A stretch of 64,000 bases of DNA. Origin: Ideonella livida (lineage in GTDB: Bacteria; Pseudomonadota; Gammaproteobacteria; Burkholderiales; Burkholderiaceae_C). Each line of letters starts with the position of its first letter. Position 1 is the stretch's first letter. The notes under the pieces were generated by a model. That model was given only the letters and a program-made list of their open reading frames with translations. It was not told the origin of the DNA and ran no database searches. The translations under genes were made by a program, and so were the position numbers. Location of the stretch: assembly GCF_010499455.1 (NCBI RefSeq), contig NZ_JAAGOH010000004.1, positions 1 to 64,000 on the forward strand. Reading direction: 5' to 3'. Shown piece by piece: positions 35,067 to 54,131 of this stretch.

Positions 35067-35083
35067 AGCCAGGGGAGTGCGTC

Positions 35084-36655: not shown

Positions 36656-36690
36656 TCCCGGCCCTTGGCGGTGAGAGGGAGACGCGGCCC

Positions 36691-37821: not shown

Positions 37822-37873
37822 GGCTGGCCCGTGGGGCCGGCGGCATCAACCTGACAACCCAAGCTGGAACGAC

Positions 37874-38503
37874 ATGGCGCTCATCAAAGGACAACCCCAG
37901 GCCGGCGCCGCGCGCGAGGCCGACACCCGCCAACATGGGCGCGACCCGGCGGACCTGGCCCAGCGCCTGGCCGACCCGCAGGCTGAGGTGCGCCGCTGGG
38001 CCGCCCGCGACCTGGCCGACTGCCCGGGCAGCGCCCAGGCCCTGGTGGACCGGCTGGCCGAGGAGCCCGACGAATCGGTGCGTGAGGTCATCCTCACCAG
38101 CCTGATCGAGTTGGGCGACCCGGTGGCGGTGCACGGCCTGGTGGCCTGCATGCGCAGCGACGACGCCGCGCTGCGCAACGAAGCCATCGAGGCCATGAAA
38201 CAGCTGCCCGATGCGGTCTCGCCCATCATGCGCGGCCTGCTGCTGGACGAGGACAGCGACATGCGCATCTTTGCGGTCAACATCCTGGAGTCGCTGCGGC
38301 ACCCCAGTGTGGAGACCTGGCTGCTGGAGGTGATCGAGCACGACGACCACGTCAACGTCTGCGCCACCGCGGTGGACCTGCTGGGCGAGGTGGGTTCCGA
38401 GCGGGCGCTGGACGCGCTGCAGGCTCTGCGAACCCGTTTCGTGGGCGAACCCTACATCCAGTTTGCGGCCGACCTGGCCATCAAGCGCATCCAGGAAGGC
38501 TGA
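37874..38503 (+). CDS. HEAT-repeat protein of the chemosensory operon
   Basis: A 209-residue, all-helical protein. After about 25 residues come roughly five HEAT-like repeats, such as LADPQAEVRRWAARDLADC, LAEEPDESVREVILTSLIEL, MRSDDAALRNEAIEAMKQL and LLDEDSDMRIFAVNILESL. No catalytic residues are evident. HEAT proteins are docking surfaces; in this position between cheB and cheR it may bind a receptor tail or one of the receivers (inference). The frame is open back to 37751 but ATG 37874 is the sensible start after the cheB stop. Confidence 0.85.
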   Translation: MALIKGQPQAGAAREADTRQHGRDPADLAQRLADPQAEVRRWAARDLADCPGSAQALVDRLAEEPDESVREVILTSLIELGDPVAVHGLVACMRSDDAALRNEAIEAMKQLPDAVSPIMRGLLLDEDSDMRIFAVNILESLRHPSVETWLLEVIEHDDHVNVCATAVDLLGEVGSERALDALQALRTRFVGEPYIQFAADLAIKRIQEG

Positions 38504-38511
38504 ACGCCACC

Positions 38512-39348
38512 ATGGTTGAACCCACCATCACCGACGAAGACTTCCAGAAGTTCCGGGAGTTCTTCTACCGCAAGACGGGGATCCAGTTCGACCCGTCCAA
38601 ACGCTACTTCGTGGACAAGCGGCTGCTCGAGCGCATGGCCGCCACCGGCAACACGCTGTTCCGCACCTACTTCACCATGCTGCGCTTTCAGGCGTCGGGG
38701 CAGGAGCTGCAGATCCTGACCAACCTGATGACGGTCAACGAGACCTACTTCTTCCGCGAGGACTACCAGTTCAAGTGCCTGGTGAACTCGATCATGCCGG
38801 AGGTGGTGGCGCGCAAGAAGCCGGGCACCCCGATCCGCATCTGGATCCTGCCCTCGTCCTCGGGCGAGGAGCCGTACTCCATTGCCATGACGCTGCTGGA
38901 GCAGTGGGCCGGCATCCATGAGCACGATGTGGAGCTGATCGCCTCGGACATCGACACCGACATCCTCAACCAGGCCCGCGCGGGGCTGTTTTCCGACCGC
39001 TCGGTGGCCCAGGTGCCCAAGCCCTACATGAGCCGCTACTTCCGGCGCACCGGCCAGGGCTGGCAGATCTGCGACGACCTGCGCAGCGCGGTGGAGTTCA
39101 CCCGCGTCAACCTCTCGGACCGGGCCGACACCCGGCCCTACCGGGGTTTTGACGTGGTGTTCTGCCGCAACCTGCTCATCTACTTTGACGATGTCTCGCG
39201 CAAGGCCGCGGCGGAGACCTTCTATGACGCGCTCAAGCCCGGCGGCTTCATCCTGCTGGGCCACTCGGAGTCGATGAGCCGCATCTCATCGCTCTACAAG
39301 GTGCGCAAGTTCCCCGAAGCCATCGTCTACCAGAAGCCCACCGAGTAA
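38512..39348 (+). CDS. cheR: CheR chemotaxis protein methyltransferase
   Basis: A 278-residue classical CheR. Motifs: FYRKTGIQFDPSKRYFVDKRL, LMTVNETYFFRED, the SAM site ILPSSSGEEPYSIAMTLL, ASDIDTDILNQARAG, VVFCRNLLIYFDD and GFILLGHSES. It adds methyl groups to receptor glutamates opposite CheB. Only 8 bp separate it from the HEAT gene and 3 bp from cheY. It lacks the long N-terminal extension of the paralogue at 29702. Confidence 0.95.
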   Translation: MVEPTITDEDFQKFREFFYRKTGIQFDPSKRYFVDKRLLERMAATGNTLFRTYFTMLRFQASGQELQILTNLMTVNETYFFREDYQFKCLVNSIMPEVVARKKPGTPIRIWILPSSSGEEPYSIAMTLLEQWAGIHEHDVELIASDIDTDILNQARAGLFSDRSVAQVPKPYMSRYFRRTGQGWQICDDLRSAVEFTRVNLSDRADTRPYRGFDVVFCRNLLIYFDDVSRKAAAETFYDALKPGGFILLGHSESMSRISSLYKVRKFPEAIVYQKPTE

Positions 39349-39351
39349 GCC

Positions 39352-39726
39352 ATGAAACGCATTCTCATCATTGACGATGCCGCCACGGTGCGCCTGTACC
39401 ACCGCACCATCCTGCAGGACGCAGGCTATGAGGTGGTCGAGGCCATCAACGGCGTGGAGGCCCTGGAAAAGGCATTGGCCCAGGACTTCGACCTCTACAT
39501 CGTGGACGTCAACATGCCCAAGCTGGACGGCTACGGTTTCCTGCGGGAGCTGCGCCACAGCAACCGTCCGCAGGTCCCGGCCATCATGGTCTCCACCGAG
39601 GCCACCGCCAGCGACCGCAAGCGCGCCTATGCCGCCGGTGCCAACCTCTACCTCATCAAGCCCACCCGGCCCGAGCAACTGGTGGCGCCCATCGCCCTGC
39701 TGCTGGGCGGCGAGGAAGAAGCATGA
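39352..39726 (+). CDS. cheY: CheY-type response regulator
   Basis: A 124-residue receiver: ILIIDDAATVR, phospho-acceptor Asp52 in IVDVNMPKLDGYGF, MVSTEATASDRKRAYAAGA and YLIKPTRPEQL. A Ser-Thr pair replaces the common single Thr region. Its ATGA overlap with cheA and upstream cheR make it the likely direct phosphorylation partner of the operon's CheA. It differs in sequence from the closely related trio at 27474, 29185 and 42890. Confidence 0.92.
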   Translation: MKRILIIDDAATVRLYHRTILQDAGYEVVEAINGVEALEKALAQDFDLYIVDVNMPKLDGYGFLRELRHSNRPQVPAIMVSTEATASDRKRAYAAGANLYLIKPTRPEQLVAPIALLLGGEEEA

Positions 39727-42590
39727 ACGAGCTGCTCGAACAGTTCCTGTCCGAGGCGCGCGAGGCGCTGGAGGGCATCGGTGACAAGCTCATGGCGCTG
39801 GAGCAGGCGCCGGACGACACCGAGCTGATGACCCAGCTGTTCCGGCTGGTGCATACCCTCAAGGGCAACAGCGGCCTGTTCGAGTTCCCGGAGATGACCC
39901 GGGTGCTGCACGCCGGTGAAGACCTGATGGACGCGGTGCGCCACGGGCGCCTGTCCTACTCCCGCGAGCTGGCCGACCGGCTGCTGGACGCGATGGACTT
40001 CGTGGGCATGCTCTGCGACGCCATCGAGGCCGGCCGGCAGGACGCCCATGCCCACGCCGACGAGGCGGTGCGCCTGGCCCAGGCGCTGCGGGCCCTCAAG
40101 GGGGAGGACGCCGAAGCCGGCCAGCCGGCGGAGGAAGCCGCAGCCCCTGCGCTGCCCGCGCTTTCCGTGGCACAACTGTGGGCGCTGCCCGAGGCGGTGC
40201 GCCAGGACCTGGTGCGCCAATCCGGTGGCCGCTTGCTGCACTGGCTGCTCTACCGGCCGGACCCGCAGTGCTTCTTCCAGGGCGATGACCCGCTGTACCG
40301 GGCCCTGCAGACGCCGGGCCTGCTCTGGCGCCAGATCCGGCCCCGTGGCCCCTGGGCCCCGCTGGCGACGCTGGACCCTTTCGACTGCCAGCTCGACCTA
40401 GAGGCCATCACCGCCGCCGATCCCCAGGCCCTGTCCGAACATTACCGCTATGTGCCCGACCAGCGGCGGCTGGAGGCCTTCTCGCCCTGGTGCCTGGTGC
40501 GGCCGGAAGGCGACCCCAACGGCGGCCCGGTCTACGAAGACTTCATGCAGGACGCGCAGGGCTGGCTGGAGGCGGACGACCTGTCCGCCCTGGGCCGGGC
40601 GGTGGACGCCCTGCTGGACCTCAGCAGCCCGGCCCTGTGGTTCGCCTCGGCCCTGCGCTGGATGCGCACGCTGCTGCAGATGGAGGCCGTGCCCCGGCCG
40701 GCGCTGCGGGCCCTGGTGGCGTCTCTGGCCGACCTGCAGCCGCCGGACATCCTGGGGGCCATGGACCGCGCCGAACGGGCAGATGGCGATGCGCCCGGTC
40801 CGCGCGAGGTGCCGCTGGAGAACCCCGAATCGCCTGCGATGCAGGCCCTGGTCAATCTGGTGGAAACCCAGCGTGAGGTGCTGGCCCTGCCGGACGACGC
40901 GCAGTGGCTCTCCGGCCGCCTGGCTGCTGCCGCGCGGGTGCTGGCCGGTTGCCTGCGCCAGACCGGCCGCGAGGCCCAGGTGCCGGCCATGCAGGCTGTG
41001 GCCGAGCAGGCGCGGGGGCAGGGCAGCGCGCAGCCCCTGGCGGCCTGGCTGGAGGCGGTGTTTCCCGAAGGCCGGCCCCTGACCCGGCTGCTGCAGGTGG
41101 CGGACCCGGCGCCGGTGCTGGCCGAGGCCACTGTCGCCCCAGTGTCCCCGGTCACCGAGGTGATCGCCCCGGCCCCGGTGGCCGCGGTGCGACCGGCCCC
41201 AACGCCGGCCCCGAGCCCGGTCGGGGGCCTGTCAGGCCCGAGCGACGACTACCTGGAAGACGACGAGGACGTGGTGGTGCTGGAGGCGCCACCGCGGCCG
41301 GCTCCGCCCCCACCGCCGCAGCCCCCCAGCCCGCCGGCGGCCTCTGCCGACGCCCAGGCTGAGGCCACGGAGGCTGAAGGCCGCAGCCCGCGCCGCGGCG
41401 AGGACGCCGGGGCCACCCGCAGCAGCCTCAAGGTTGACCAGGCCAAGATCGACCGGCTGATGAACCTCATCGGCGAGATGGTGGTGGCCAAGAACGCCAT
41501 TCCCTACCTGGCCAGCCGGGCGGAGCAGCAGTTCGGCGTGCGCGAGCTGGCCCGTGAGATCAAGGCCCAGTACGCCGTCATCAACCGCATCTCCGAGGAG
41601 ATGCAGGACGCCATCATGCAGGTGCGCATGATGCCGGTGTCCTTCATCTTCCAGCGCTTTCCGCGCCTGGTGCGCGATACCTCGCGCCGCCTGGGCAAGG
41701 AGGTCAACCTGGTGCTCGACGGCCAGGAGACGGCGGCCGACAAGAACATCATCGAGAGCCTGGGCGACCCGCTGGTGCACATCGTGCGCAACAGCCTGGA
41801 CCACGGCATCGAGACCCCCGAGGTGCGCCAGGCCGCCGGCAAGCCGGCGGTGGGCACGCTGCGCATCAGTGCCCGCCAGGAGAGCGATCGCGTCGTCATC
41901 GAAATTCACGACGACGGCAAGGGCATGGACCCGGTGGTCATCAAGCGCAAGGCCTGGGAGAAGGGGTTGATCGACGAGGCCGCCATGGAGCGCATGAGCG
42001 ACCAGGAGGCCATCCACCTGATCTTTGCGCCGGGTTTCTCCACGGCCGATGTGGTGTCGGACCTGTCGGGGCGGGGCGTGGGCATGGACGTGGTGCGCAC
42101 CGCCGTGGAGCGGGTGCATGGCAACGTCAGCCTGGAGAGCGTCAAGGGGCAGGGCACTCGCATTCGGCTGTCGCTGCCGCTGTCCATGGCCGTGACCAAC
42201 GTCATGACCATCGAAGCCGACGGTCAGGTCTTTGGCGTGCCCATGGACACGGTGGTTGAGACCGTGCGCGTGCCCGCCGCCGCGGTGCGGCGGATCAAAC
42301 AGAGCCTGGTGGCCACGCTGCGGGGGCGCATCGTGCCGCTCAAGCCGCTCAACCAGCTGCTGGGCCTGGCCGCGCCGCCCCTGACCAACGACAGCGAGGA
42401 GTACGCGGTGCTGGTGGTGCGCGTAGGCGACGAGACCGTCGGCCTGCTGGTGGACAACTTCCGCGAGACCGCCGACATCATCCTCAAGCCACTGGCCGGG
42501 GTGCTGGGTGGCCTGAGCGCGTATGCCGGCTCGGCCCTCATGGGGGATGGCTCGGTGCTCATGGTGCTCAACGTCAAGGAGATGGTGTGA
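39723..42590 (+). CDS. cheA: CheA histidine kinase with an enlarged middle region
   Basis: The 955-residue kinase starts with an HPt domain (1 to about 105) with phospho-His44 in VHTLKGNSGLFEF. The kinase core begins near residue 565 (KIDRLMNLIGEMVVAKNAI dimerization helix), with N-box HIVRNSLDHGIE, DDGKGMDP, FAPGFSTAD and the GRGVGMDVV lid. A CheW-like domain ends the protein. Between HPt and core lie about 460 residues instead of the usual 150: a folded-looking part (for example FFQGDDPLYRALQ and DPFDCQLDLEAI) followed by a Pro/Ala-rich linker. No classical CheY-binding P2 is obvious to me. Confidence 0.95.
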   Translation: MNELLEQFLSEAREALEGIGDKLMALEQAPDDTELMTQLFRLVHTLKGNSGLFEFPEMTRVLHAGEDLMDAVRHGRLSYSRELADRLLDAMDFVGMLCDAIEAGRQDAHAHADEAVRLAQALRALKGEDAEAGQPAEEAAAPALPALSVAQLWALPEAVRQDLVRQSGGRLLHWLLYRPDPQCFFQGDDPLYRALQTPGLLWRQIRPRGPWAPLATLDPFDCQLDLEAITAADPQALSEHYRYVPDQRRLEAFSPWCLVRPEGDPNGGPVYEDFMQDAQGWLEADDLSALGRAVDALLDLSSPALWFASALRWMRTLLQMEAVPRPALRALVASLADLQPPDILGAMDRAERADGDAPGPREVPLENPESPAMQALVNLVETQREVLALPDDAQWLSGRLAAAARVLAGCLRQTGREAQVPAMQAVAEQARGQGSAQPLAAWLEAVFPEGRPLTRLLQVADPAPVLAEATVAPVSPVTEVIAPAPVAAVRPAPTPAPSPVGGLSGPSDDYLEDDEDVVVLEAPPRPAPPPPPQPPSPPAASADAQAEATEAEGRSPRRGEDAGATRSSLKVDQAKIDRLMNLIGEMVVAKNAIPYLASRAEQQFGVRELAREIKAQYAVINRISEEMQDAIMQVRMMPVSFIFQRFPRLVRDTSRRLGKEVNLVLDGQETAADKNIIESLGDPLVHIVRNSLDHGIETPEVRQAAGKPAVGTLRISARQESDRVVIEIHDDGKGMDPVVIKRKAWEKGLIDEAAMERMSDQEAIHLIFAPGFSTADVVSDLSGRGVGMDVVRTAVERVHGNVSLESVKGQGTRIRLSLPLSMAVTNVMTIEADGQVFGVPMDTVVETVRVPAAAVRRIKQSLVATLRGRIVPLKPLNQLLGLAAPPLTNDSEEYAVLVVRVGDETVGLLVDNFRETADIILKPLAGVLGGLSAYAGSALMGDGSVLMVLNVKEMV

Positions 42591-42889: not shown

Positions 42890-43264
42890 GTGCCCAAGAC
42901 CATTCTGGTGGTGGATGACTCTCTGACCATGACCAAGAGCCTGAAGTCCAACCTGGAGATGAGCGGCTTTGCGGTGCTCACCGCCGGTGACGGCGAGGAG
43001 GCCATCGGGACCCTGCGCGGCGGTGCCAAACCGGACCTGATCATCACCGACATCAACATGCCGCGCATGGACGGTCTGGCCCTCATCAAGGCGGTCAAGT
43101 TGCTGCCGGGCTTCCGGTTCACCCCCATCCTGACGCTGACCACCGAGGGCGACGGCGCCAAGCGCGACGAAGGCAAGCGCCTGGGGGCCACCGGCTGGCT
43201 GGTCAAGCCCATCAAGGGCACCGACCTGATCCGCGTCATCAAGCAGGTCCTGCCGGGCGCCTGA
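42890..43264 (+). CDS. CheY-type response regulator
   Basis: A 124-residue receiver starting at a GTG with AAGGGA just upstream. Motifs: [10 protein letters not shown], Asp54 in [26 protein letters not shown] and [11 protein letters not shown]. Very close to the receiver at 29185 (same [12 protein letters not shown] core and IKQVLPGA end). As there, it sits directly before a small two-helix membrane receptor gene. Confidence 0.92.
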
Positions 43265-43281: not shown

Positions 43282-44556
43282 ATGAACCCCGCGCACCGCC
43301 CTGAAGTGGAACGCTCCTTCTCTCCGGACCGCCCGCGCCGGCCCCGTGCCCTGCGTCGCTGGGGCGTGCCCGCCTTGTCCGTCACGGTCATGGCCACCGG
43401 GGTCGCTTTCTGGCCGGCCCTGTGGCCCGCGGCCGAGGCCGGCAGCCTGTGGCGCTGGCTGTGGCTGATGACGGTGGGCGGGGCCGGCCTGGGGCTCACC
43501 GCCTTGATCGTGCGGGCCGCCGGCCCGCGGGGCGGGCAGCGCGCCCACCTGCAGACCCTGGCCGAACGGCTGGGCGAGGCCAGCCCCTACGTCACCGTCA
43601 TGACCCGGCAGCTCGACGGCGCGGTGGCGCAATGCGAGAAGGACGTGCTGGCCGTGGTGGACTGCCTGGACCAGGTGCACGCCGCGGCCGAACAGCAGGT
43701 CGAGCGCATTGACGCTGCCACCCGCAACGCGCACGACCTCTCGGAGGTCATCCGCGAGAAGCTGCTGGTGGACCGCCAGCTCTCGGCCATCCTGGAGATG
43801 TTCGTCCAGCGGCAGGAGGAGGAACTCGCCGGTCATGCCGAGCGTGTGCAGCGCCTGCAGGAGGTGCGCGACCTGGCGCCCATGGTGGACGTGGTGGCCG
43901 AGGTGGCCCGCCACACCAACATCCTGGCCATCAACGCCGCCATCGAGGCCGCGCGCGCCGGCGAGAGCGGCCGCGGCTTTGCGGTGGTGGCCGGCGAGGT
44001 GCGCCGCCTGGCCCAGCAGACCGCCGAGGCGGCCCGCGAGATCACGGCCAAGATCAACGCGGTCACCCAGGGCATCGACGCCGAGGTGGACAAGGTCATG
44101 CGCACCGGGGTGCGCGATGGCAGCTCCCGCAACATGCACGACGTGCTGCGCGACATCGAGGCCATGCGCCACCGCTTTGCCGAGGCCTCGGAGCGTCTGC
44201 AGGGCGACCAGGGCATCGACCGGGGCAACAACACCATCCGCGCCGGCCTGTCCGAGGCCCTGGGGCTGATCCAGTTCCAGGACGTGCTGCGCCAGCGGGT
44301 GCAGCAGGTGCAGGAGGCCATGCAGCACCTGGACCACCATCTGCAAGGGGCGGCGGCTGACCTGCGCGAGCCCGGCGAGCATGGGGCGCTGCCGCGGCTG
44401 GCCATCTCCGAGGTGTTGGCCCAGCAGACCCAGCGTTACGTGATGGACGCGCAGCGCCAGACCCACCACGCGGCGGTCAAGGGCAAGTCCGGCGCGGCCC
44501 TGCCGGCCGCGGCCGCCCCGCAGGCGGCGGAGCGCCCGGCCATTGAGCTGTTCTGA
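43282..44556 (+). CDS. small membrane methyl-accepting chemotaxis protein, no ligand domain
   Basis: A 424-residue receptor, identical in length to its paralogue at 27899. It has two membrane helices at about 28-50 and 57-78 with almost nothing between, then coiled coil. The tip is [20 protein letters not shown] with return strand [33 protein letters not shown] segment and a tail ending in IELF follow. Since both receptors keep exactly this tail, it may be a docking peptide for a methylation enzyme or CheY (inference). Confidence 0.9.
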
Positions 44557-44568
44557 GCACGTCTGTCC

Positions 44569-45351
44569 ATGGGTCGAGTGCTCGCCATCACCAACCGCAA
44601 GGGCGGCAGCGGCAAGACCAGCTGCGCCGTCAACCTGGCCGCCGAATGGGCGGCCGCCCTGCCACCACGGCCCGATGGCCCGCGCGCCCGGGTGCTGTTG
44701 GTGGACCTGGACAGCCAGGGCCACTGCGCGGTGGGCCTGGGGGTGCAGCCGGCGCGGGGCGCGCCCACCGTGCACGGATTCTTGGCCGGCCGGCATGCGC
44801 TGCGCCCGGCCATCGTGCCCACGCCAGTGCCCGGCCTGGACCTGGTGCCCGCCGACCCGCTGTTCGAGCATGGGCAGGCCCGGCCCGATGAGCGCACCCT
44901 GGCCCGTGCCCTGCGTGAGGAGGGCCTGGCCGAGGCCTACGAGGTCATCCTGCTGGACACCCCGCCCTCCTTGGACCTGCTGCTGCTCAACGCCCTGTGC
45001 GCCGCCGAGCGGGTGGTGGTGCCACTCATGCCGCACCACCTCTCGGCCGAGGGGGTCAAGCAGTTGGCGCGGCTGATGTTCCGCGTCTCCAGCCAGGGCC
45101 TGAACCCACAGTTGCGCCTGCTGGGCTTTCTGCCGGTGATGCTGGACGGCCGCATCGGCGTGCACCGCCAGGTGCTGGCCGACCTGGGGCGGCAGTTCGG
45201 TCCCCAGCGTCTGCTGCCGGGCATCCGCAACGACATCCGGGTGGCCGAGGCCTTTGGCGCGGGCAAGCCGGTGCGCCTGCATGCGCCCGGCGCCCGGGCC
45301 ACGGCCGACTTCGGTCAGGCCCTGCAGGCACTGCGCGAGCGCTGGGTATGA
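44569..45351 (+). CDS. ParA/MinD-like ATPase of the chemosensory operon
   Basis: A 260-residue deviant Walker A ATPase: AITNRKGGSGKTSCAVNLAAE, with LLVDLDSQGHCAVGLG (A') and EVILLDTPPSLDLLLLNAL (Walker B). No ParB gene follows. ParA homologues in chemosensory operons (PpfA in Rhodobacter sphaeroides, ParC in Vibrio) position chemoreceptor arrays. Here it begins 12 bp after a receptor gene and shares the operon with a soluble receptor having a basic N-terminus, a potential ParB-like partner (inference). Confidence 0.88.
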   Translation: MGRVLAITNRKGGSGKTSCAVNLAAEWAAALPPRPDGPRARVLLVDLDSQGHCAVGLGVQPARGAPTVHGFLAGRHALRPAIVPTPVPGLDLVPADPLFEHGQARPDERTLARALREEGLAEAYEVILLDTPPSLDLLLLNALCAAERVVVPLMPHHLSAEGVKQLARLMFRVSSQGLNPQLRLLGFLPVMLDGRIGVHRQVLADLGRQFGPQRLLPGIRNDIRVAEAFGAGKPVRLHAPGARATADFGQALQALRERWV

Positions 45352-45435
45352 GCCCCGGCGGGCATGGCCAGGGTGTCGGGGCGCCGCCACGCTTCAAAGT
45401 GTGAAAATCGCGGCAATCCACTTTTCTGTGCGCCC

Positions 45436-46146
45436 ATGACCGACAACGTTCCTGACGTGCTCACCACCCAGCAGGCCGCACGGCGTCTGGGCCTGTCGGT
45501 CAGTTCGGTGCAGAAGCTGGTGGGCCGCGGCGAGCTGACCGCCTGGATCACGCCCGGGGGCCACCGGCGCATCGACCGCGCCGCGGTGGAGCGCTTGGCG
45601 CAGGCGCGGCGCCAGGGCGCGCCGGCACCGCCTGAGGCCGACGCGGCACCGGTCCCGGCCTCGGCCTGGGATACCGTGCCCGCGCCGCCGGCGCCACCGC
45701 TGATGTCCCGTGCGGCGGCGGCCGCCGCCGCCACACCGGGGGCCGCTGTGCAGGGCCTGCGTGTGCTCCTGGCCGAGGACGACCCCGACCAGGTGCTTTG
45801 GTTTCGCCATGCCTTGGCGGCCCACCATGCCGGGCACCGCCTGATCGTCGCGGCAGACGCCTCACAAGCCCTCATCCTGCTGGAGCGCGAGCGGCCCGAC
45901 CTGCTGGTGACCGACCTGGTGATGCAGCCTTTTGACGGCTTCCACCTGCTGCGCACCCTGGTGGCCCAGCCCGAGTGGGTGGGCATCGAGGTGCTGGTGC
46001 TCTCCGGTCTCTCGGGTGACGAGATCGCTGCCCGGGGGGGCTTGCCTGCGGGCGTGAGCCACTTCACCAAGCCGGTGGCGCTGGAGCGCCTGCTGGGCCT
46101 GCTCGATGGCGCCTGGGCCCGCCGACAGCGCGCCGGCGCCAAATAA
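45436..46146 (+). CDS. HTH plus receiver protein in reversed order
   Basis: A 236-residue protein. Residues about 8-55 form an excisionase/MerR-like HTH (LTTQQAARRLGLSVSSVQKLV, with the wing ITPGGHRRIDRAAVERL). An Ala/Pro linker leads to a receiver at about 110-230: VLLAEDDPDQV, phospho-acceptor Asp in LLVTDLVMQPFDG, and HFTKPVALERLL. Most response regulators have the receiver first. It is probably a DNA-binding regulator controlled by a kinase of this region. ATG 45436 is chosen; the gap of 84 bp from the ParA gene may hold a separate promoter. Confidence 0.85.
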   Translation: MTDNVPDVLTTQQAARRLGLSVSSVQKLVGRGELTAWITPGGHRRIDRAAVERLAQARRQGAPAPPEADAAPVPASAWDTVPAPPAPPLMSRAAAAAAATPGAAVQGLRVLLAEDDPDQVLWFRHALAAHHAGHRLIVAADASQALILLERERPDLLVTDLVMQPFDGFHLLRTLVAQPEWVGIEVLVLSGLSGDEIAARGGLPAGVSHFTKPVALERLLGLLDGAWARRQRAGAK

Positions 46147-46323
46147 GTCCGGGCACCATCGCCAGCGGCCTCAACTCCGCGGCCGGCGGGACGAAACATG
46201 CAGGCAGATCGGTGGCGGGGCCGGCACACGGGGTGTGCCCAGGGTCCCGAACCACGTGCCCCACGGGGCTGGGCCAAGCCGCCGCGGGCGGGTCCCAGCT
46301 GGCCGTCAGCCAAGGAGAGGACC

Positions 46324-46722
46324 GTGTCTTCCAGCCCGCACTTTGACAGCGAGCAGCTCTGTCAGTTGCTCAACGACCTGCCCGCCGAAGCCCTGGACGA
46401 ACTGCCGTTCGGCGTCATCGGCTTTGACGCCGAGCAGCTGGTGGTGCGCTACAACCGCCACGAGAGCCAGGCCGCCAAGTTCCCGGTCTCTGAGGTGATG
46501 GGCCAGCAGGTCTTCGTGGAGCTGGCGCCCTGCCTCAACAACTACATCGTCGCCCTGCGCTTTGAGCTGGCGATGGAGCAGTCCCAGCCCCTGGATGCGG
46601 TGGTGCCTTATGTGCTGACCTTTGCCATGCGGCCCACGCGGGTGCGCCTGCGCCTGCTGTCCGATCCCGCCCTGCCGCTGCGCTTTGTCCTGGTGCAGCG
46701 CCAGGTCAGCGGCCTGGTCTGA
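46324..46722 (+). CDS. pyp: photoactive yellow protein homologue
   Basis: A 132-residue PAS-fold protein that aligns along its length with Halorhodospira photoactive yellow protein at a constant offset of one residue. Chromophore-site residues are kept: Tyr43 and Glu47 in RYNRHESQ (Tyr42, Glu46 in PYP), Cys70 in ELAPCLNN (Cys69, the p-coumaroyl thioester site) and the Met of FAMRPTRV (Met100). LPFGVIGFD at 27-35 matches LAFGAIQLD. Thr50 and Arg52 of PYP are replaced by Ala and Phe, so the absorption or kinetics may differ. The GTG at 46324 is preceded by AAGGAG with a 6-bp gap. The PYP-type CoA ligase two genes downstream supports a working, chromophore-loaded sensor. Confidence 0.88.
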   Translation: MSSSPHFDSEQLCQLLNDLPAEALDELPFGVIGFDAEQLVVRYNRHESQAAKFPVSEVMGQQVFVELAPCLNNYIVALRFELAMEQSQPLDAVVPYVLTFAMRPTRVRLRLLSDPALPLRFVLVQRQVSGLV

Positions 46723-46749
46723 GTCCCGACGCTACGGCTGGAGCCCGGC

Positions 46750-47196
46750 ATGACCCTTCCCGCCGATCCGCCTTCATGTGCCGAGGCCGAGGAGTTGCGG
46801 CTGGAGGTGCGCGCGCTTGAGCAGTTCGTGCACCTGGCGCCGGTGGCGCTGCTGCGCACCCGCCTGAGCGGTCAGGTGCTAATGATGAACCCGGTGGCCG
46901 CCCGCTGGCTGGGCCCGTGGTGCGGCACCGAGGGGCACCTCAACCTCTTTGAGATCCTGGCGCCGCTGTGCCCGGACCTGCCCGCGCGTGTGCAGGCCTT
47001 CCGCCGCCCGGTGGGGGTGGTGTGCGACAACCTGCGGGTGGTGCTGCCCCCCACCGGGCAGGACGGCGCCCATCCCCTGGCGCTGGGGCTCACCCTCATG
47101 CGCCTGTCTGCCGACCCCGACGCCCTGATGGCGGTGTTCACCGACCAGAGCGCCCAACTCCGGCTGGAGGGCCGGCCGACCGATGGCGACGCCTGA
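46750..47196 (+). CDS. small PAS-domain protein
   Basis: A 148-residue protein: a short helix (AEAEELRLEVRALEQFVHLAP) runs into a PAS domain with TRLSGQVLMMNPVAARWLG and FEILAPLCPDLPARV. No catalytic domain, no LOV cysteine motif and no clear haem site is visible. Sandwiched between the PYP gene (27 bp) and the ligase (14-bp overlap), it may be a signalling partner of the PYP protein. Function is unknown. Confidence 0.7.
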   Translation: MTLPADPPSCAEAEELRLEVRALEQFVHLAPVALLRTRLSGQVLMMNPVAARWLGPWCGTEGHLNLFEILAPLCPDLPARVQAFRRPVGVVCDNLRVVLPPTGQDGAHPLALGLTLMRLSADPDALMAVFTDQSAQLRLEGRPTDGDA

Positions 47197-48580
47197 CGTC
47201 CATCCCGCCCTGCCACCCTGGTGGGACGAACCGGAGGTGCTGGCGCGTCTGGTCAGCCACCTGCTGCGCGCAGAGATGCAGCAGCTGCGCCCCGGCGGCT
47301 GGTTTGCCACGGGTCAGGACGATCCTGCCGGGGGTTGGCACCCGGCGCTGGATTGGCGCCACGACCTGGGCGCCGACTCCCTGGAGCGCATGCAGCTGTT
47401 GACCGCCCTGGCCGAATGGGCCGAGCTGGAGGATGGGCCGGCGCTGGAGCGCCTGTGGGCCGAGCCCACCCTGGCGGCCGCCTGCCAGGCCCTGGCGCAC
47501 GGCCTGGCCAGCCGGCATGAGGCGGTGGTGTTCCGCACCTCCGGCAGCACCGGCCCGGCGCGGGGCTGCCGGCACCGCCTGGCCGCGTTGTGGCAGGAGG
47601 TGGCCCACTGGGTGCTGTTGTGGCGTGACCAGGGCCTGCCGCGGCCGCAGCGCGTGGTCAGCCTGGTGCCGGCGCACCACATTTATGGCTTCTTGTTCAG
47701 CGTGCTGTGGCCGCTGGCCTGGCAGCGTGCCGACGGCCAGCCCCTGCCGGTGGTGGACGCCTGGCGCCGCCCGCCGGCCAAGGCCGCCCTGGGACTGCGC
47801 CCGGGCGACGTGGTGGTGGCGGTGCCGGCGCTGTGGGGCCTGCTGCTGCGCAGCCCGGGCGACTGGCCGGCGCAGGTGTCCGGCCTATGCAGCACGGCCC
47901 CGTGCCCGCCGGCGCTGGCCGCGGCCCTGGGTGGGGCAGGGGGGCTGCAGGCCTTTCTGGAGATCTATGGCAGCAGCGAGACCGCCGGGCTGGGGGTGCG
48001 CCGCTGGCCCGCTGCCGACTACACCCTGCTGCCCTACTGGGAGCGGGTGCCTGAAGGGAGCCAAGAGGGGCAGGACGATGCCTGTGCAGGGCGGGTGCCG
48101 CGCTTTCTGCGACAGGGCAGCCACCAGGCCGTGGAAGGGCCCGACCGCCTGCAGTGGCAGGGCGAGCGCCGCTTCCAGCCCGTGGGGCGGCGCGACCAGG
48201 TGGTGCAGGTGGGCGGGGTCAATGTGAGCCCGGCCACGGTGGCCGCCGCCCTGGCGGCACGCCCGGGGGTGGCCCAGGCGGTGGTACGGCCCTGGGGCGA
48301 GGGGGCACAGGCCCGGCTCAAGGCCTTTGTGGTGCCCGCCCCCGAAGTTCGGGCGGCTGCGCAGGAGGCCGAACTGGTGGCCGCCCTGCTGGCCTGGGCG
48401 CGCCAGGGCCTGCCGCCCGCTGCGCGGCCGGTGCACATCCAGACCGGACCGGCTTTGCCGGTCAATGCCATGGGCAAGGCCTGCGACTGGCCGCTGCCGC
48501 CCGCAGACGTCACGCCGCAGGCCACGGTGCCGCGCATCTTGGAAGGGGAGGGTGATGAGTCCGCTGACCTTGCTGGATGA
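47183..48580 (+). CDS. 4-coumarate:CoA ligase, PYP-activation type
   Basis: A 465-residue adenylate-forming enzyme with a carrier-like N-terminus (GADSLERM with Ser66 where phosphopantetheine would attach). The AMP loop FRTSGSTGPARG is at 118-129, the A5 motif YGSSETAG starts at 262, VGRRDQVVQVGGVNVSP is A7-A8, and the catalytic Lys432 is in PVNAMGKACDW. It is shorter than plant-type 4CL, like the ligases that activate p-coumarate to charge photoactive yellow protein. Location next to the PYP gene makes this assignment strong. The tyrosine ammonia-lyase supplying p-coumarate is not in the window. Confidence 0.85.
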   Translation: MATPDVHPALPPWWDEPEVLARLVSHLLRAEMQQLRPGGWFATGQDDPAGGWHPALDWRHDLGADSLERMQLLTALAEWAELEDGPALERLWAEPTLAAACQALAHGLASRHEAVVFRTSGSTGPARGCRHRLAALWQEVAHWVLLWRDQGLPRPQRVVSLVPAHHIYGFLFSVLWPLAWQRADGQPLPVVDAWRRPPAKAALGLRPGDVVVAVPALWGLLLRSPGDWPAQVSGLCSTAPCPPALAAALGGAGGLQAFLEIYGSSETAGLGVRRWPAADYTLLPYWERVPEGSQEGQDDACAGRVPRFLRQGSHQAVEGPDRLQWQGERRFQPVGRRDQVVQVGGVNVSPATVAAALAARPGVAQAVVRPWGEGAQARLKAFVVPAPEVRAAAQEAELVAALLAWARQGLPPAARPVHIQTGPALPVNAMGKACDWPLPPADVTPQATVPRILEGEGDESADLAG

Positions 48581-51212
48581 CCGGGTGCTGGAACGCCTGC
48601 GCCAGGAGTCCGAATCGGCCCCGTGGCCCAAGCTGGCCCTGTGCGCGCGCAGCGGCGAGCTGCTGTGGTGCAACGCGGGCAGCCTGCGCTGGCTGGGCCG
48701 CTCTGCCGCGCAGCTGGCCGACCGAGACGGCCTGCGCCAGGCCCTCAAGCGCTGGCAGGGGGCCGCGGGCGAGGGCGCCATGGACCGCTGGCTGGGCATC
48801 ACCGCCCGTCAGCCCCTGGAGCGGTTGCTGCTGCCCGATCCCGGTGGCGCCGGACTGGACACGTGGGTGGAATGGCTCAGCGCATGGGTAGACACGCCGC
48901 TGGGGGAATGGCTGGTGCTGCGGGCCCGGCCGGTGGCCGGGGCGCTGTTGGCGCGCCTGGATCCGCATTCTCAGGCGCCGCGTGAGCTCTCCGATGCCCC
49001 GGGGGCCCAGGCCAGCGGGGTGTTGGCGGTGGACGTCATGCGCGGGCGCTGCCACCTGGAGTTCATGGATGCGCCGCTGCAGCGCTGGCTGGGGGTGCGC
49101 AGCGGCGAACGGCTGGAGGCCTGGAACTGGCTGGAGGCCGGCATGGGGGCGTTTGATACCCTGGCCCTGCTGGCTGGCTGCGCCAGCGCCGAGCCGGTGA
49201 GCCTGCTGCTGGCCGATCGCCCGCTGATGGACCAGTCGGCGCCCTGGGTGCTGTCCATCACCCCGGCCAGTGAGGCCGCAGGCCAGCAGCGCGCCTGCGC
49301 CCTGCTGCGCTGGCAGAGCCTGGCCGGCGCCACGCCGGCACGGGCCCGTGTGTCACGCCCACTGGAGGCCGACCGGGAGGCGGTGCTGGAGCTTGACGCC
49401 GAGGGCCGTCTGCGGCACCTGGGTGGCGCCTGGGAGACCCTGAGCGGCCTGCCGGCGGCCATGGCCATGGGCCGTGCCCTGACCGACTTCTGCCCCGCCA
49501 CCGCCCGCGCCAACTGCGCCGAGCACCTGCTGCCCGTGCTGCAGGGCCAGCAGCGCGCCCTGCGCATGGACTGGCCCTTCGAGCCGGTGGCCGGCTCGCC
49601 CCTGCGCTGGCTGGAGCTGCGGCTCTGGCGCGACGAGACCCTGGGCGACCGCTGCGCTGGCACCCTGGTGGACGCCACCGAGCGGGTATTGGCCCAGCGT
49701 ATCCAGGCCATCCAGACCCGGGCCCTGGACCACATCCGGGCTGGGGTCATCATTGCCGATGCCACGCGGCCGGGCTACCCGACGGTGTATGCCAACGCCG
49801 GCTTCTCCCACCTGACCGGCTACGGCGCCGACGAGGTGCTGGGCCGCAGCTGCAGCTTTCTGCAGGGCGACGAGGCGCAGCAGGCCGGCCGCAGGGACAT
49901 GCGCGAGGCCCTGGACAGCGGCCGTGCGGTGTCGGTGCGCATGGCCAACTACCGCAAGGACGGCAGCCGGTTTTGGAACCAGGTGGAGCTCTCGCCCATT
50001 TGCGATCCGGTCAGCGGCCTGGTGACCCACTTTTTCGGCCTGCAGACCGACGTCTCCGAGCAGGTGCAGTCGCAGGAGGCCGCCGCGCGGCGCGTGGCCG
50101 AGCTGGAGGGCCTGTTTCGCCACAGTCCGCTCGGCATCGTGGCCGCCGACGGGGCCGGGCGCCTGTTGCTGCAGACCCCTGCCGTCGCGCGCCTGACGGG
50201 TTTGGACGGTGAAGCCCTGGCGGGTCAGAGCCTGGCGCAGTTCGAGCAGGCGCTGCGCGAGCGGGTGGGCCCGGGGCAGGCCGTGAGTTGGCCCGAGCCC
50301 GGGCAGTGCCAGGTCTGGCCCCTGGGGGGCGGTCCGGGCCGAGGCAGCGCCCGCATGGTGCAGCTGGCGGCGGCGGACCGGCCCGACGACGAGGGGCTGC
50401 GGCTGATCTTCCTGAGCGACGTCACCGCCGAGACCGACCTGCGGCGCATGAAGACCCAGTTCCTGGCCACCGCCGCCCACGAGCTGCGGGCACCCATGGG
50501 CAGCATCCGTGGCTTCACCGAGTTGCTGCTGATGCGTCAGCACGGGCCCGAGGACACCCGGGAGATGCTGGAGACGGTGCGGCGCCAGGCCCTGCGCCTG
50601 AACGCCCTGCTGACCGACTTGCTGGACCTCAGCAAGCTGGAGGCCCAGGGCCCTACCGCCTTTGAGCTGGGGCCCGTGGCCCTGCATGAGGTGGTGCGCC
50701 GGGCCTTGCGCGTGGTGGTGCTGCCCACCGAGCCGCGTCCGGTGGATTGGCAGCTCGGCGAGGCGCCGGTGATGGTCTGCGGGCACGCGGCCAAGCTGGA
50801 GCAGGTGCTGATCAACCTGCTGTCCAACGCCTGCAAGTACTCGCCGGCCCGCGCCCCGCTGCAGCTGCGCCTGAAGCGCTGCCAGCGCCAGGGGCGCGAC
50901 TGGTGGGCCCTGAGCGTGACCGACCAGGGCGTGGGCCTGTCCAGCGAGCACCTCGGCCAGTTGTTCACCCGCTTCTTCCGCGCCCAGCCCGACGGGCCTG
51001 TGCCCGGCACCGGCCTGGGCCTGGTCATCGTCAAGGAGCTGGTGGAGCGCATGGGGGGCCAGGTGGAGGTGCAGAGCGCGCTGGGCCAAGGCTCCACCTT
51101 CACCCTGCTGTTGCAGGATGCGGGCCCGCCCCCGCTGGCCGAGGTGCCCACCGCGGCCCTCCCGGCGGCACTGCCCGCCGCCCGTCACCGTTCTGCCGGG
51201 GCCGGCCGCTGA
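48555..51212 (+). CDS. LOV/PAS sensor histidine kinase
   Basis: An 885-residue soluble kinase. About three PAS-like regions occupy 1-385. A LOV domain at about 395-510 reads VYANAGFSHLTGYGADEVLGRSCSFLQGDE with the photoadduct Cys433; the flavin contacts NYRKDG, FWNQVELSP and GLQTDVSE (Asn, Asn, Gln) are kept, though the usual NCRFLQ is SCSFLQ. Another PAS follows, then HisKA with His642 in ATAAHELRAPMGSI and the ATPase with NLLSNACKYS, DQGVGL and GTGLGLVIVKEL. ATG 48555 follows AGGGGAGG and overlaps the ligase gene. A blue-light-regulated kinase is expected; its response regulator may be the HTH-receiver protein upstream. Confidence 0.9.
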   Translation: MSPLTLLDDRVLERLRQESESAPWPKLALCARSGELLWCNAGSLRWLGRSAAQLADRDGLRQALKRWQGAAGEGAMDRWLGITARQPLERLLLPDPGGAGLDTWVEWLSAWVDTPLGEWLVLRARPVAGALLARLDPHSQAPRELSDAPGAQASGVLAVDVMRGRCHLEFMDAPLQRWLGVRSGERLEAWNWLEAGMGAFDTLALLAGCASAEPVSLLLADRPLMDQSAPWVLSITPASEAAGQQRACALLRWQSLAGATPARARVSRPLEADREAVLELDAEGRLRHLGGAWETLSGLPAAMAMGRALTDFCPATARANCAEHLLPVLQGQQRALRMDWPFEPVAGSPLRWLELRLWRDETLGDRCAGTLVDATERVLAQRIQAIQTRALDHIRAGVIIADATRPGYPTVYANAGFSHLTGYGADEVLGRSCSFLQGDEAQQAGRRDMREALDSGRAVSVRMANYRKDGSRFWNQVELSPICDPVSGLVTHFFGLQTDVSEQVQSQEAAARRVAELEGLFRHSPLGIVAADGAGRLLLQTPAVARLTGLDGEALAGQSLAQFEQALRERVGPGQAVSWPEPGQCQVWPLGGGPGRGSARMVQLAAADRPDDEGLRLIFLSDVTAETDLRRMKTQFLATAAHELRAPMGSIRGFTELLLMRQHGPEDTREMLETVRRQALRLNALLTDLLDLSKLEAQGPTAFELGPVALHEVVRRALRVVVLPTEPRPVDWQLGEAPVMVCGHAAKLEQVLINLLSNACKYSPARAPLQLRLKRCQRQGRDWWALSVTDQGVGLSSEHLGQLFTRFFRAQPDGPVPGTGLGLVIVKELVERMGGQVEVQSALGQGSTFTLLLQDAGPPPLAEVPTAALPAALPAARHRSAGAGR

Positions 51213-51341
51213 GCCCATGCGCCCGGTGCCGACGCCTTTGCGTTTCCGCCTCGCCTGCAAAGAGGTGTTTCCGTCCATGTGTGCGCCCCATGCCCGCGTT
51301 CCACGCGCCAGCCGCTTGTCATGCCCGGGGAGTGTCCGGTG

Positions 51342-54131
51342 ATGAGCGCCGAGTCCCCCCGCCCCGGCGGCCCGGAGCCCCCGCTGCCACCGAAACAGCT
51401 CGAACCGGCTGAACCGGTTGAACCGGTTGAACCGGCCGTGCCGGTGGCGCTATGGCTGTCCACCCCCGCCGACGGCACCGACACGGCCCACGGGTCGGAT
51501 ACCGACCATCGCCTGGCCGACGGGGCCGAGGCCCCCCCGGCTCCGCCGGCCCGGCTGGCCCACCTGTTGGCCCTGGCCCTGGGCGCCTTGCTGAGCCTGG
51601 CGGGGCTGTGGTGGCCGGCCCTGGTGCCGCATTGGCCGGGTCAGCCGGTCAGCCCGCTGGCCGCCGCCGCACTGTCGGTGGTGGCCCTGGCCCACACCCG
51701 CGGGTGGGCCCTGGCCCGCAGCCACGCCGCCGGCGTGGCCCTGGGGGCCGGTATGGTGGCCTTGGGCTTGGAGGTGGGGGCTTGGCCGGCCCTGGGGGGC
51801 TTACCCCTGGACCTGGCGGTGCTGGCCGCCCTGTGCCAGGCCGGTGTGGTGGCGGCGCTGCTGCGGCGGCGCCCCCCACGCGACTTGACGGCCCCCGGCT
51901 GGCGCACCCTCCTCAGTCTGCTGGGCATGGCCCTGGCCGGCGCGCTGGTGGCGACGCTGCTGCGCACCGTCCTGGGGGCCTGGCGGGCAGAGGGTGCCTG
52001 GGCCATGGGCGCGGGCCTACAGCTTTCCTGGGCCTTGGGCGACCTGGCCGTGGGGGCCCTGCTGCTGCCCCTGCTGCTGCGGGCCACCCGGCCCAAGGCC
52101 TGGAGGGACCGGCGCACGACCATGCTGCTGGCGTGGGCCCTGGCGGGCATGGGCGCAGCGGTGGTTGGGGCGCTGGCCGTGCAACACCTGGAGCGGCAGC
52201 GCCTGGACAACCTCTTTCACCACCAGGCGCTGCAGGCGGCGCAGGCGCTGGATCTGCGCCTGCGCAGCGTGGAGCTGGACCTGGCCCGGCTGAACCCCGA
52301 CAACCTGCAGGCGGGGCTGGCCGCCCTGGCCCTGCAACAGCCAGCCCTGCAGGCGGTGGCCTGGCATGCGGCCACGGCGCCGCCGGGCCTGGCGGGTGTG
52401 GCCACGCCCGCGGCCGACAGCCCCACCACCACCGTGGTGGCGCTGGCCGCCGGGGTCTGGCTGCAGCACCGTGTGGGCTTGTCGGCTCATCTGGAGGGGC
52501 GGCTGGAGTTGGACCGCCTGCTGGACGACGCACGTGCCACCTGGTGGCGCGGCGCTGGACAGGCCGGCCAAGGCGTGCCCCTGCCACTGCAGGGCGTGGG
52601 CCTGCAGCTGCAGGTGGAGGTCCCTGGTGCGGCTGCCCGGGCGGGCGCGGTGGTGCCGCCGGCGTCCTCCGCGTCGGCGCCCGAGCACCTGAGCCGGCAC
52701 CGCCTGGGGGCTTCTGCGCTGGTGCTGCGCATCACGGCCGATCCGGTGAGGTGGCGCGGCAACAGCAGCGGCTGGCCCCTGGCGGCCTGGCTTTTGGGCT
52801 TGGCCTTGGCCCTGGGCATGCAGTGGGGCGCCTTCCGGGTGGGCGGACGGCGCCAGACCCTGGAGGAGGCGGTGGCCCGCACCACCGCCGAACTGGACCA
52901 GAGCCTGCTGCTGCTGGAGGAGGCCGTGGACGGCTACCGCCAACAGTCGGCCCAGCTGCGGCTGCTGCTGCAGAGTACTCCCGTGGGCTACTTGGCGATC
53001 GACACCCAAGGCCGGGTGGCGGTGGTCAATGAGGCGCTGTGCTGCCTGATCGGTCTGGAAGAGCAGGCCCTGGTGGGCATGGACCTGGACGACCTGGCCG
53101 ATTGGTGCGCCCGCCATTGTCCGGACCAGGCCGAGGCGCTGCGGCACTGCATGGCCGCCTCCCTGCAGGACGAGGCGGCCTGCGGCGCCATGCGCCTGAG
53201 CTGGCAGACGCCCCAGGGCGAGCGCCTGCTGAGTTGGCACCGCCATGCGGTGCAGGACGACACGCTGCGCAGCATTCTGCTGGTGGAGGACGTGACCGAG
53301 GCGGTGCGGCTGGACCGCAGCAAGACCCAGTTCATCGCCAACGTGGCGCATGAGGTTCGTACGCCGCTGACCAGCATCCTGGGCTATGCGCAGCTGCTGC
53401 GGGCCAGGCCCAACCTCGAGCCGGTGCAGCGCGAGGAGATGCTCAGGCATGTCCATGCCCAGGCCCAGGCCTTGTCGGTGCTGATGGCCAATATGCTGGA
53501 CTTGGTGGAGCTAGAGACGGTGGGCCGTACCGGGCTGGCCTGCCAGCCCGCCGACCTGGCGGCCGCCGTACGGGCCTTCCTCAAGACCTGGCGGCCGCCG
53601 GCGGGCCGTGCCGCCCCGGTGCTGGAGGCGCCGGCGCAGGGGCCGCTGACCTGCCAGCTGCACGCGCGCAAGTTGGGCCTGATGCTGCGCCACCTGCTGG
53701 CCAATGCCTACGCCTTCTCACCCGCCGCGGGACAGGGCGAGAGCGGCCCGCCGGTACACCTGCGCCTGGTTGCGGCGGACGGGGGCGCTGGGGCCTGGTT
53801 GAGTGTGGAGGACGGCGGCATCGGCATGTCCGAGGCGGAGGTGGCCCAGGCCTTCGACCGCTTCTGGCGTGCCGACACCTCGGGCGCCCATCCGGGCTTC
53901 GGCCTGGGCCTGAGCATCGTGCGCCTGGTGGTGCAAGCCCATGGCGGTCACCTGCTGGTGGACTCCCAGCCCGGGCAGGGCACGCGGGTGCGGGTTTGGC
54001 TGCCGGGGGTGACACCGCCTTCGGCCGGTGGCAGCCGGGACAGCGGTCCGCCCGTGCTGCCCGCCGGTCTGGTCGCGCCTGTGCCCGCGCCGGCGGCCGC
54101 GGCCGCCCGGGAGATGGGGCTGCCGGCCTGA
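51342..54131 (+). CDS. membrane sensor histidine kinase with MASE1-like and PAS domains
   Basis: A 929-residue kinase. A Pro/Glu-rich start is followed by about seven to eight membrane helices at about 70-280 (MASE1-like), a periplasmic CHASE-like part (about 280-470), one further helix (WPLAAWLLGLALALG), a coiled coil and a PAS domain with TPVGYLAIDTQGRVAVVN. HisKA has His670 in NVAHEVRTPLTSILGY; the ATPase has HLLANAYAFS, EDGGIGMSE and GFGLGLSIVRL. ATG 51342 (or GTG 51339) after GGGGAG is preferred. It is last in the plus-strand series, 129 bp after the LOV kinase. Confidence 0.85.
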   Translation: MSAESPRPGGPEPPLPPKQLEPAEPVEPVEPAVPVALWLSTPADGTDTAHGSDTDHRLADGAEAPPAPPARLAHLLALALGALLSLAGLWWPALVPHWPGQPVSPLAAAALSVVALAHTRGWALARSHAAGVALGAGMVALGLEVGAWPALGGLPLDLAVLAALCQAGVVAALLRRRPPRDLTAPGWRTLLSLLGMALAGALVATLLRTVLGAWRAEGAWAMGAGLQLSWALGDLAVGALLLPLLLRATRPKAWRDRRTTMLLAWALAGMGAAVVGALAVQHLERQRLDNLFHHQALQAAQALDLRLRSVELDLARLNPDNLQAGLAALALQQPALQAVAWHAATAPPGLAGVATPAADSPTTTVVALAAGVWLQHRVGLSAHLEGRLELDRLLDDARATWWRGAGQAGQGVPLPLQGVGLQLQVEVPGAAARAGAVVPPASSASAPEHLSRHRLGASALVLRITADPVRWRGNSSGWPLAAWLLGLALALGMQWGAFRVGGRRQTLEEAVARTTAELDQSLLLLEEAVDGYRQQSAQLRLLLQSTPVGYLAIDTQGRVAVVNEALCCLIGLEEQALVGMDLDDLADWCARHCPDQAEALRHCMAASLQDEAACGAMRLSWQTPQGERLLSWHRHAVQDDTLRSILLVEDVTEAVRLDRSKTQFIANVAHEVRTPLTSILGYAQLLRARPNLEPVQREEMLRHVHAQAQALSVLMANMLDLVELETVGRTGLACQPADLAAAVRAFLKTWRPPAGRAAPVLEAPAQGPLTCQLHARKLGLMLRHLLANAYAFSPAAGQGESGPPVHLRLVAADGGAGAWLSVEDGGIGMSEAEVAQAFDRFWRADTSGAHPGFGLGLSIVRLVVQAHGGHLLVDSQPGQGTRVRVWLPGVTPPSAGGSRDSGPPVLPAGLVAPVPAPAAAAAREMGLPA
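51402..51437 (+). repeat. four 9-bp repeats inside a histidine kinase gene
   Basis: GAACCGG followed by CT, TT, TT and CC is repeated four times head to tail and encodes Glu-Pro-(Ala/Val) triplets in the Pro-rich N-terminus before the first membrane helix. Such a unit can expand or contract in whole codons, changing only linker length. Confidence 0.8.

Follow-up and report, generated by a model that had tools for sequence, protein, structure and literature searches.

The 64,000-nucleotide stretch of the Ideonella livida genome analysed here (contig NZ_JAAGOH010000004.1, positions 1 to 64,000; the window) contains, within a run of chemosensory and two-component genes, a gene of the photoactive yellow protein (PYP) family. 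It is followed on the same strand by a gene for a stand-alone PAS domain, a gene for a PYP-type p-coumarate:CoA ligase and a gene for a histidine kinase with a LOV-type domain, named here HK1. An earlier sequence-only reading of this DNA had recognised the PYP and the ligase; the identification of 46750 as a PYP-linked PAS domain and of the gene after the ligase as a LOV-type histidine kinase goes beyond it. Genes are called below by their start positions, and G and L numbers are our handles for genomes and loci. The central features are:

46324..46722, + strand: PYP-family photoreceptor gene, 132 residues, GTG start; Tyr43, Glu47 and Cys70 make up the chromophore site
46750..47196, + strand: stand-alone PAS domain of a PYP-following family, 148 residues; predicted PAS fold; proposed PYP-reading adaptor
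47183..48580, + strand: PYP-type p-coumarate:CoA ligase, 465 residues; overlaps the PAS gene
48555..51212, + strand: histidine kinase HK1, 885 residues; N-terminus of about 390 residues without a Pfam match, LOV-type domain, PAS, HisKA, HATPase; overlaps the ligase gene
49722..50060, + strand: LOV-type domain of HK1, GRSCSFLQG; adduct Cys present, flanking Asn and Arg replaced by Ser

The PYP gene and its ligase

The GTG at 46324 opens a reading frame of 132 codons and is preceded by AAGGAG six bases upstream. The NCBIfam model TIGR02373 matched the product with 60.2 bits (E 2.1e-16), under its equivalog cut-off of 143.05, and the protein is classed as a divergent member of the PYP family, not as a TIGR02373 equivalog. 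A sequence search returned 32 solved sequences at E 0.01, PYP or PYP derivatives, and a profile of the product matched 33 at E 1e-6, all of them again PYPs or their derivatives; in both sequence and fold the product is nearer to PYP than to other PAS proteins. These matches uphold the earlier identification as PYP, and an ordinary PAS protein was ruled out as the identity of 46324, since by sequence only PYP structures match. In the alignment Tyr43, Glu47 and Cys70 correspond to Tyr42, Glu46 and Cys69 of H. halophila PYP, and their equivalents are kept in all 80 named PYP relatives (the best 80 of 266, chosen by PYP similarity alone) as well as in the window. The one-residue offset claimed earlier holds for these three residues but not for the Met100 equivalent, which is residue 102 and offset by two. 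The replacements at the Thr50 and Arg52 positions, taken earlier as signs of altered spectrum or kinetics, are present (Ala51 and Phe53); the Ala, however, is no peculiarity of this protein, because the published consensus of the family has Ala there (Dohmen et al., PMC12826048). The product is assigned to a little-studied Burkholderiales type of PYP. Like the ‘clade C’ proteins of Xing et al. (2022, PMC9664959), it is a single-domain protein with the Tyr42/Glu46/Cys69 set, a Burkholderiales host and GGDEF-adjacent relatives, and Burkholderiales PYPs often adjoin GGDEF genes (Xing et al., PMC9664959); membership of that clade we infer from the host order and the GGDEF neighbourhood of the relatives.

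The product of 47183 matched TIGR02372 over nearly its full length with 268.5 bits (E 7e-80), the cut-off of 334.7 not being reached, and it is classed as a divergent relative of the TIGR02372 ligases, not as an equivalog. Ligases beside the nearest PYP relatives also score under this cut-off (275 bits in G404, 266 bits in G384), and the second-best match across the genome of the window has 52.5 bits. The earlier statement that a PYP-type ligase lies two genes after 46324 is borne out by this match. A general acyl-CoA ligase was ruled out (268 bits, compared with 52 for the runner-up in the genome). A role in p-coumarate breakdown was rejected as well, since the genome has no p-hydroxycinnamoyl-CoA hydratase/lyase over the cut-off of the presumed model of that enzyme, named PRK09120.1. 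The view of 46324 and 47183 as a PYP with a dedicated ligase is well supported, and the PYP is very probably functional if p-coumarate is supplied.

The sequence-only reading had suggested seeking a tyrosine ammonia-lyase in the rest of the genome, and the PF00221 search of its 104 contigs recognised none. The single PF00221 enzyme is the histidine ammonia-lyase HutH (TIGR01225, 688 bits, over cut-off), and the gene preceding it codes for the urocanate hydratase HutU (TIGR01228, 795 bits, over cut-off). Therefore, p-coumarate is probably scavenged by Ideonella livida. A PF00221 match at E 1e-20 is absent from 13 of the 38 PYP-positive genomes; one of the genomes, G095, consists of one contig without such a match, yet it carries a PYP-type ligase over cut-off (355 bits). 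A lyase is found in 5% of pyp operons, and uptake was named as one possibility (Dohmen et al., PMC12826048).

A strong PYP-type ligase (177 to 362 bits) was seen in 10 of the 38 PYP-positive genomes; another 15 have no strong one but a ligase scoring 92-123 bits, and 14 control genomes have none at that threshold. At L043 and L072 (the latter one locus with L188), the Burkholderiales-type PYP-PAS pair has a second, H. halophila-like PYP and a PYP-type ligase a few kb away at most; a single ligase may thus serve both kinds of PYP. At L053, two distant PYPs stand in tandem with a ligase.

A PAS family that accompanies PYP

The 46750 product has no NCBIfam match and in Pfam only a sub-threshold match to PAS_8 (E 0.035). 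Structure prediction gives it a PAS fold that includes a long helix at the N-terminus, and its profile matched none of the solved structures at E 0.01. A decayed PYP was rejected, profile comparison giving no match (E 0.45, probability 0.1). The PAS domain opens the next gene, at most 200 bases past the PYP stop, in 79 of the 80 named loci, and at the sole exception, L164, the contig ends 155 bases past PYP. The named loci are not independent, many coming from Massilia and relatives, and at least four are identical to loci of the family set (L055/L118, L056/L119, L065/L193 and L058/L142). Among 40 family loci the pairing was found in 35. The unpaired ones are L050, where the PYP is the second one of its genome; L053, with the distant PYPs; L062, where the contig ends; L052, whose PAS gene has the opposite orientation; and L071, whose PAS lies 1.2 kb farther along. 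L052 belongs to G009, of the same genus as the window; its PYP is of the other subtype, and its PAS domain is encoded about 1.6 kb upstream in reverse orientation, so that two PYP subtypes occur in one genus.

The same association is seen at the level of genomes. A match search found PYP relatives in 37 of the 399 genomes of the family, and the PYP-linked PAS profile (25 rows, built from small PAS domains adjoining PYPs of family genomes) matched 35, all within those 37, although distant unlinked copies could be missed because the profile was trained on PYP neighbours and only the best first-look candidates per genome were scored (10 in the family sample, 16 in the order sample). The two PYP-positive genomes without a PAS match, G074 and G283, have weak PYP matches (37 and 45 bits); for one weak PAS match, in G297 (58 bits), the PYP neighbourhood lay outside the checked set. 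In the order sample the profile matched 4 of 245 genomes, including that of the window, and all four have PYP beside at least one copy; one copy, L234, lacks a PYP in the surrounding 1.5 kb. The pairwise distances of PYP and PAS correlate (r 0.70 over 41 loci), and none of 2000 permutations reached so high a value.

By motif patterns, the remainder of the PAS gene in the 79 loci carries GGDEF and/or EAL in 67, a HisKA-type kinase in 4 and something else in 3, and the domain stands alone in 5, one of which (L119) is cut by the contig end and was assumed to be stand-alone. In 10 PAS genes searched with Pfam, GGDEF or GGDEF-EAL was found in four, HisKA with HATPase in four and no output domain in two, in agreement with the motif labels except at L155, labelled ‘other’ and actually GGDEF. 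The 46750 protein is probably the partner of PYP. At L069 (G382), two tandem copies of the PYP-linked PAS domain occur within one EAL-type protein, and many other loci have a further PAS-bearing gene after the first.

The LOV-type kinase and the chemosensory operon

The best solved relative of the LOV-type domain of HK1 is the LOV domain of a histidine kinase (E 5.8e-32), with the adduct Cys aligned, and HK1 is likely to be a blue-light receptor. The canonical LOV motif is NCRFLQ. The label ‘LOV-type’ is used because the HK1 motif departs from it, flavin binding being a prediction. The Arg after the adduct Cys is replaced in seven of the eight members of the HK1 clade, NCRFLQ being kept in L121 only, and its loss may have altered flavin affinity in this clade.

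The stand-alone PAS occurs at the named loci of Aquabacterium lacunae (L116), Comamonadaceae bacterium OS-4 (L117), a Rubrivivax metagenome-assembled genome (MAG; L118), an Azohydromonas MAG (L119) and Hydrogenophaga sp. IBVHS2 (L121). Together with the window these five form one side of a branch of the PYP tree (SH-like approximate likelihood ratio test, SH-aLRT, 94; few columns). A LOV-type histidine kinase lies just upstream of PYP in four of the five (164-196 bits), whereas the best LOV match within about 6 kb of PYP in the other 75 named loci has 128 bits (L145); the LOV profile used was trained on six kinases, including those of L055 and L056. A tree of 27 kinases unites HK1, the kinases of three operon relatives introduced below and the four PYP-linked kinases in a 100/100 branch against 19 others. 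The L121 row of this tree carried out-of-gene sequence before its short kinase; it was dropped from a second tree, which gave the same branch (7 rows, 100/100). HK1 groups with the kinase of the sister operon in G004 (97/91, and 91/89 without L121). Constraint tests rejected neither a grouping of HK1 with the PYP-linked kinases (p 0.08) nor one with the three operon kinases (p 0.25), and for a chimeric HK1, brought in by a PYP cassette, windowed identities are about even with both groups. In the sample, the HK1 clade stands after the chemosensory operon in three genomes and beside PYP in four, and in the window both neighbourhoods meet.

The other genes of the run, whose chemosensory names rest on Pfam, are:

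33132-35066, + strand: MCP1, start of the chemosensory operon 33132..39348
35084-36655, + strand: three CheW domains
36691-37821, + strand: CheB
37868-38503, + strand: HEAT
38512-39348, + strand: CheR
39352-39726, + strand: receiver-only gene, adjoins cheA
39723..42590, + strand: cheA
42587-42838, + strand: weak STAS match, adjoins cheA
42890-43264, + strand: receiver-only gene, near cheA
43282..44556, + strand: receptor MCP2; in Pfam the MCP signalling domain only, no sensory domain found
44569..45351, + strand: ParA-type ATPase, member of the chemosensory operon
45364..46146, + strand: regulator with HTH_17 and receiver domain, likely cognate to HK1
51279..54131, + strand: HK2, a second histidine kinase with PAS; conserved in all three operon relatives

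The cheA gene, two receptor genes and a parA-type gene thus lie upstream of 46324 on the same strand, as had been reported earlier. By eye, the N-terminus of MCP2 shows hydrophobic stretches separated by hardly any loop; a weak CheZ-like match lies near the C-terminus of this receptor. Three relatives carry the operon without PYP, G004 from the same genus and G304 and G366 from another genus; their order is chemosensory genes, MCP2, ParA, helix-turn-helix (HTH)-receiver, HK1 and HK2. MCP1 was seen in G004 only, the stretches of G304 and G366 beginning in CheW; the early order is conserved throughout in L088, and in L113 and L114 over the part that their stretches cover, which starts at CheW. 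In L113 and L114 the HTH-receiver and HK1 genes share four bases, provided that translation starts at the ATG; in L088 they are 96 to 144 bases apart. In the window these two genes are separated by 2.4 kb, in which the PYP-PAS-ligase triplet lies. A link of the HTH-receiver gene to PYP is not supported: in the six stretches examined, its family-sample relatives do not adjoin PYP. ParA relatives above 300 bits occur in 1 of 15 other genomes of the genus, so the chemosensory operon is itself patchy.

Signal path, alternatives and known systems

It is proposed, and we lean somewhat towards this account, that the triplet is a blue-light input cassette inside a chemosensory/two-component operon. 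The parts, their order, pairing and co-occurrence are read from the sequence, and the steps of the mechanism are inferred from them. As the protein families suggest, the ligase would form p-coumaroyl-CoA, from which p-coumarate would be loaded on Cys70 of PYP; light would then alter PYP and with it the contact with the stand-alone PAS protein, to which the near-complete gene pairing and the co-occurrence point. In most relatives the PAS domain is the front of a GGDEF/EAL enzyme or a kinase, so that PYP would act there directly on the enzyme; in the window and a few sister loci it would be a free adaptor. The conserved neighbourhood makes the adjacent HK1 the most likely output, and HK1 would phosphorylate the HTH-receiver regulator 45364 and possibly influence the chemosensory proteins. 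This hand-over is held less firmly than pigment loading and PYP-PAS contact, and HK1 as the output of the PYP signal is plausible, falling a little short of probable. The sensor would probably be active only with external p-coumarate, for instance from plant matter, because no tyrosine ammonia-lyase was recognised in the genome. Still more tentatively, the PAS family could serve to read the light-activated state of PYP in Burkholderiales, as a plug-in to cyclic di-GMP (c-di-GMP) enzymes and kinases or, in the form found here, as a free adaptor to a LOV-type kinase; two blue-light receptors, one with p-coumarate and one with flavin, would then serve one kinase pathway tied to a chemosensory operon, the PYP half needing external p-coumarate.

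Several observations weigh against this account. Neither the PYP nor the ligase reaches the equivalog cut-off of its TIGR model, and the lyase could be missing from an assembly of 104 contigs. The co-occurrence and co-varying distances of PYP and PAS can be explained by joint inheritance of the gene pair, and the physical contact of the two proteins, like signalling from PYP to the kinase, is predicted from sequence. Two of the 10 PAS genes searched with Pfam, L180 and L182, have no output domain. (They extend 277-282 residues from the PAS start, L182 with a second PAS, and perhaps represent another kind of adaptor.) HK1 has SCSFLQ in place of NCRFLQ and thus lacks the Asn and Arg that normally flank the Cys. 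A LOV-type kinase neighbours PYP in only 4 of the 80 named loci, all in one PYP branch, and two of these, L118 (G404) and L119 (G199), come from a single genus of the genome sample; the pairing may therefore reflect very few events. L117, one of six stand-alone-PAS loci if the window is counted, has no LOV kinase match near PYP. Finally, the chemosensory operon is present without PYP in three relatives.

The sequence-only reading held that light input is fed into behaviour. The chemosensory genes do lie upstream on the same strand, but an argument from the 3' placement is too weak, because the operon continues past PYP (HTH-receiver, LOV-type kinase and second kinase in the relatives). A more specific form of this idea, that PYP or the PAS adaptor docks on MCP2 and light steers movement via CheA, would draw on the shared strand and gene run and on the signalling domain that Pfam shows alone in MCP2, and docking of this kind was proposed in print for Leptospira PYPs beside receptors without sensory domains (PMC9664959). 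A receptor gene also stands just upstream of PYP in L058 (G401), at -1547 to -105 relative to PYP, which is followed there by a PAS-GGDEF gene. However, MCP2 and the chemosensory block occur in three relatives without PYP, and at four PYP loci with the same LOV-type kinase no window chemosensory gene was matched in stretches of 5.6 to 16.4 kb; we consider such docking unlikely. The absence of the triplet from the operon of the relatives and the patchiness of PYP (37 of 399 genomes) would also suit a hitch-hiking cassette, a complete PYP module that sits in the operon and signals elsewhere, its neighbours being uninformative on output. This too seems improbable, given that the ligase and HK1 genes overlap, that the same kinase clade adjoins PYP in four other loci and that a promoter/terminator scan had no hits, with no terminator-like site in 45300-49000, a weak test in GC-rich DNA. 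That PYP is no photoreceptor here, but is an apoprotein or carries another acyl group and senses something else, is very improbable: HutH is the only ammonia-lyase of the genome and 13 of 38 PYP-positive genomes lack a PF00221 match, but the chromophore triad is kept in 80 of 80 relatives and a PYP-type ligase belongs to the operon. The small PAS protein and, in this branch, the LOV-type kinase are the best-supported partners of PYP, and not cheA directly.

How PYP hands over its signal is an open gap in both PYP surveys (PMC12826048; PMC9664959), as far as their available parts go. A PAS family found only in PYP-bearing genomes and fused to several outputs turns this gap into a simple two-protein binding test. 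A PYP beside a LOV-type kinase would also offer a naturally occurring example of two blue-light receptors feeding a common pathway, and a sensor whose host has no p-coumarate source would depend on the environment. The locus resembles the H. halophila pyp operon of PYP, ligase and tyrosine ammonia-lyase (PMC12826048) in its downstream PYP-type ligase, and differs from it by the PAS gene between PYP and ligase and by the missing operon ammonia-lyase, the genome having HutH only. BLUF genes were reported in 2 of 113 pyp operons (PMC12826048); the window likewise has two blue-light receptors per operon, the second being a LOV-type kinase here, and LOV is not among the common pyp-operon partners in Table 2 of that survey. 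Unlike in the available description of Xing et al. (PMC9664959), the downstream PAS is recognised here as a shared PYP-linked domain in stand-alone form, and the PYP neighbour is a LOV-type kinase in a chemosensory operon.

PYP, PYP ligase, LOV kinases and chemosensory operons are individually known. Neither the PYP-linked PAS family as a shared element nor its stand-alone form was found in the open-licence literature or in the available parts of the two surveys (their supplements and an older review of pyp neighbourhoods being outside this scope), nor, within the same literature, were the pairing of PYP with the LOV-type kinase clade and its place inside a chemosensory operon, although single loci may be listed elsewhere. 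Open-licence literature on LOV kinase, chemosensory or ParA genes with PYP, or on exogenous p-coumarate, gave nothing on the topic. Chemosensory operons are known that include a ParA-type ATPase, PpfA of Rhodobacter being an example. The window resembles them in carrying CheA, CheW, CheB, CheR, receivers, receptors and ParA in one run, and differs from them in that this run continues into the HTH-receiver, the LOV-type kinase and the second kinase, with the PYP triplet in between.
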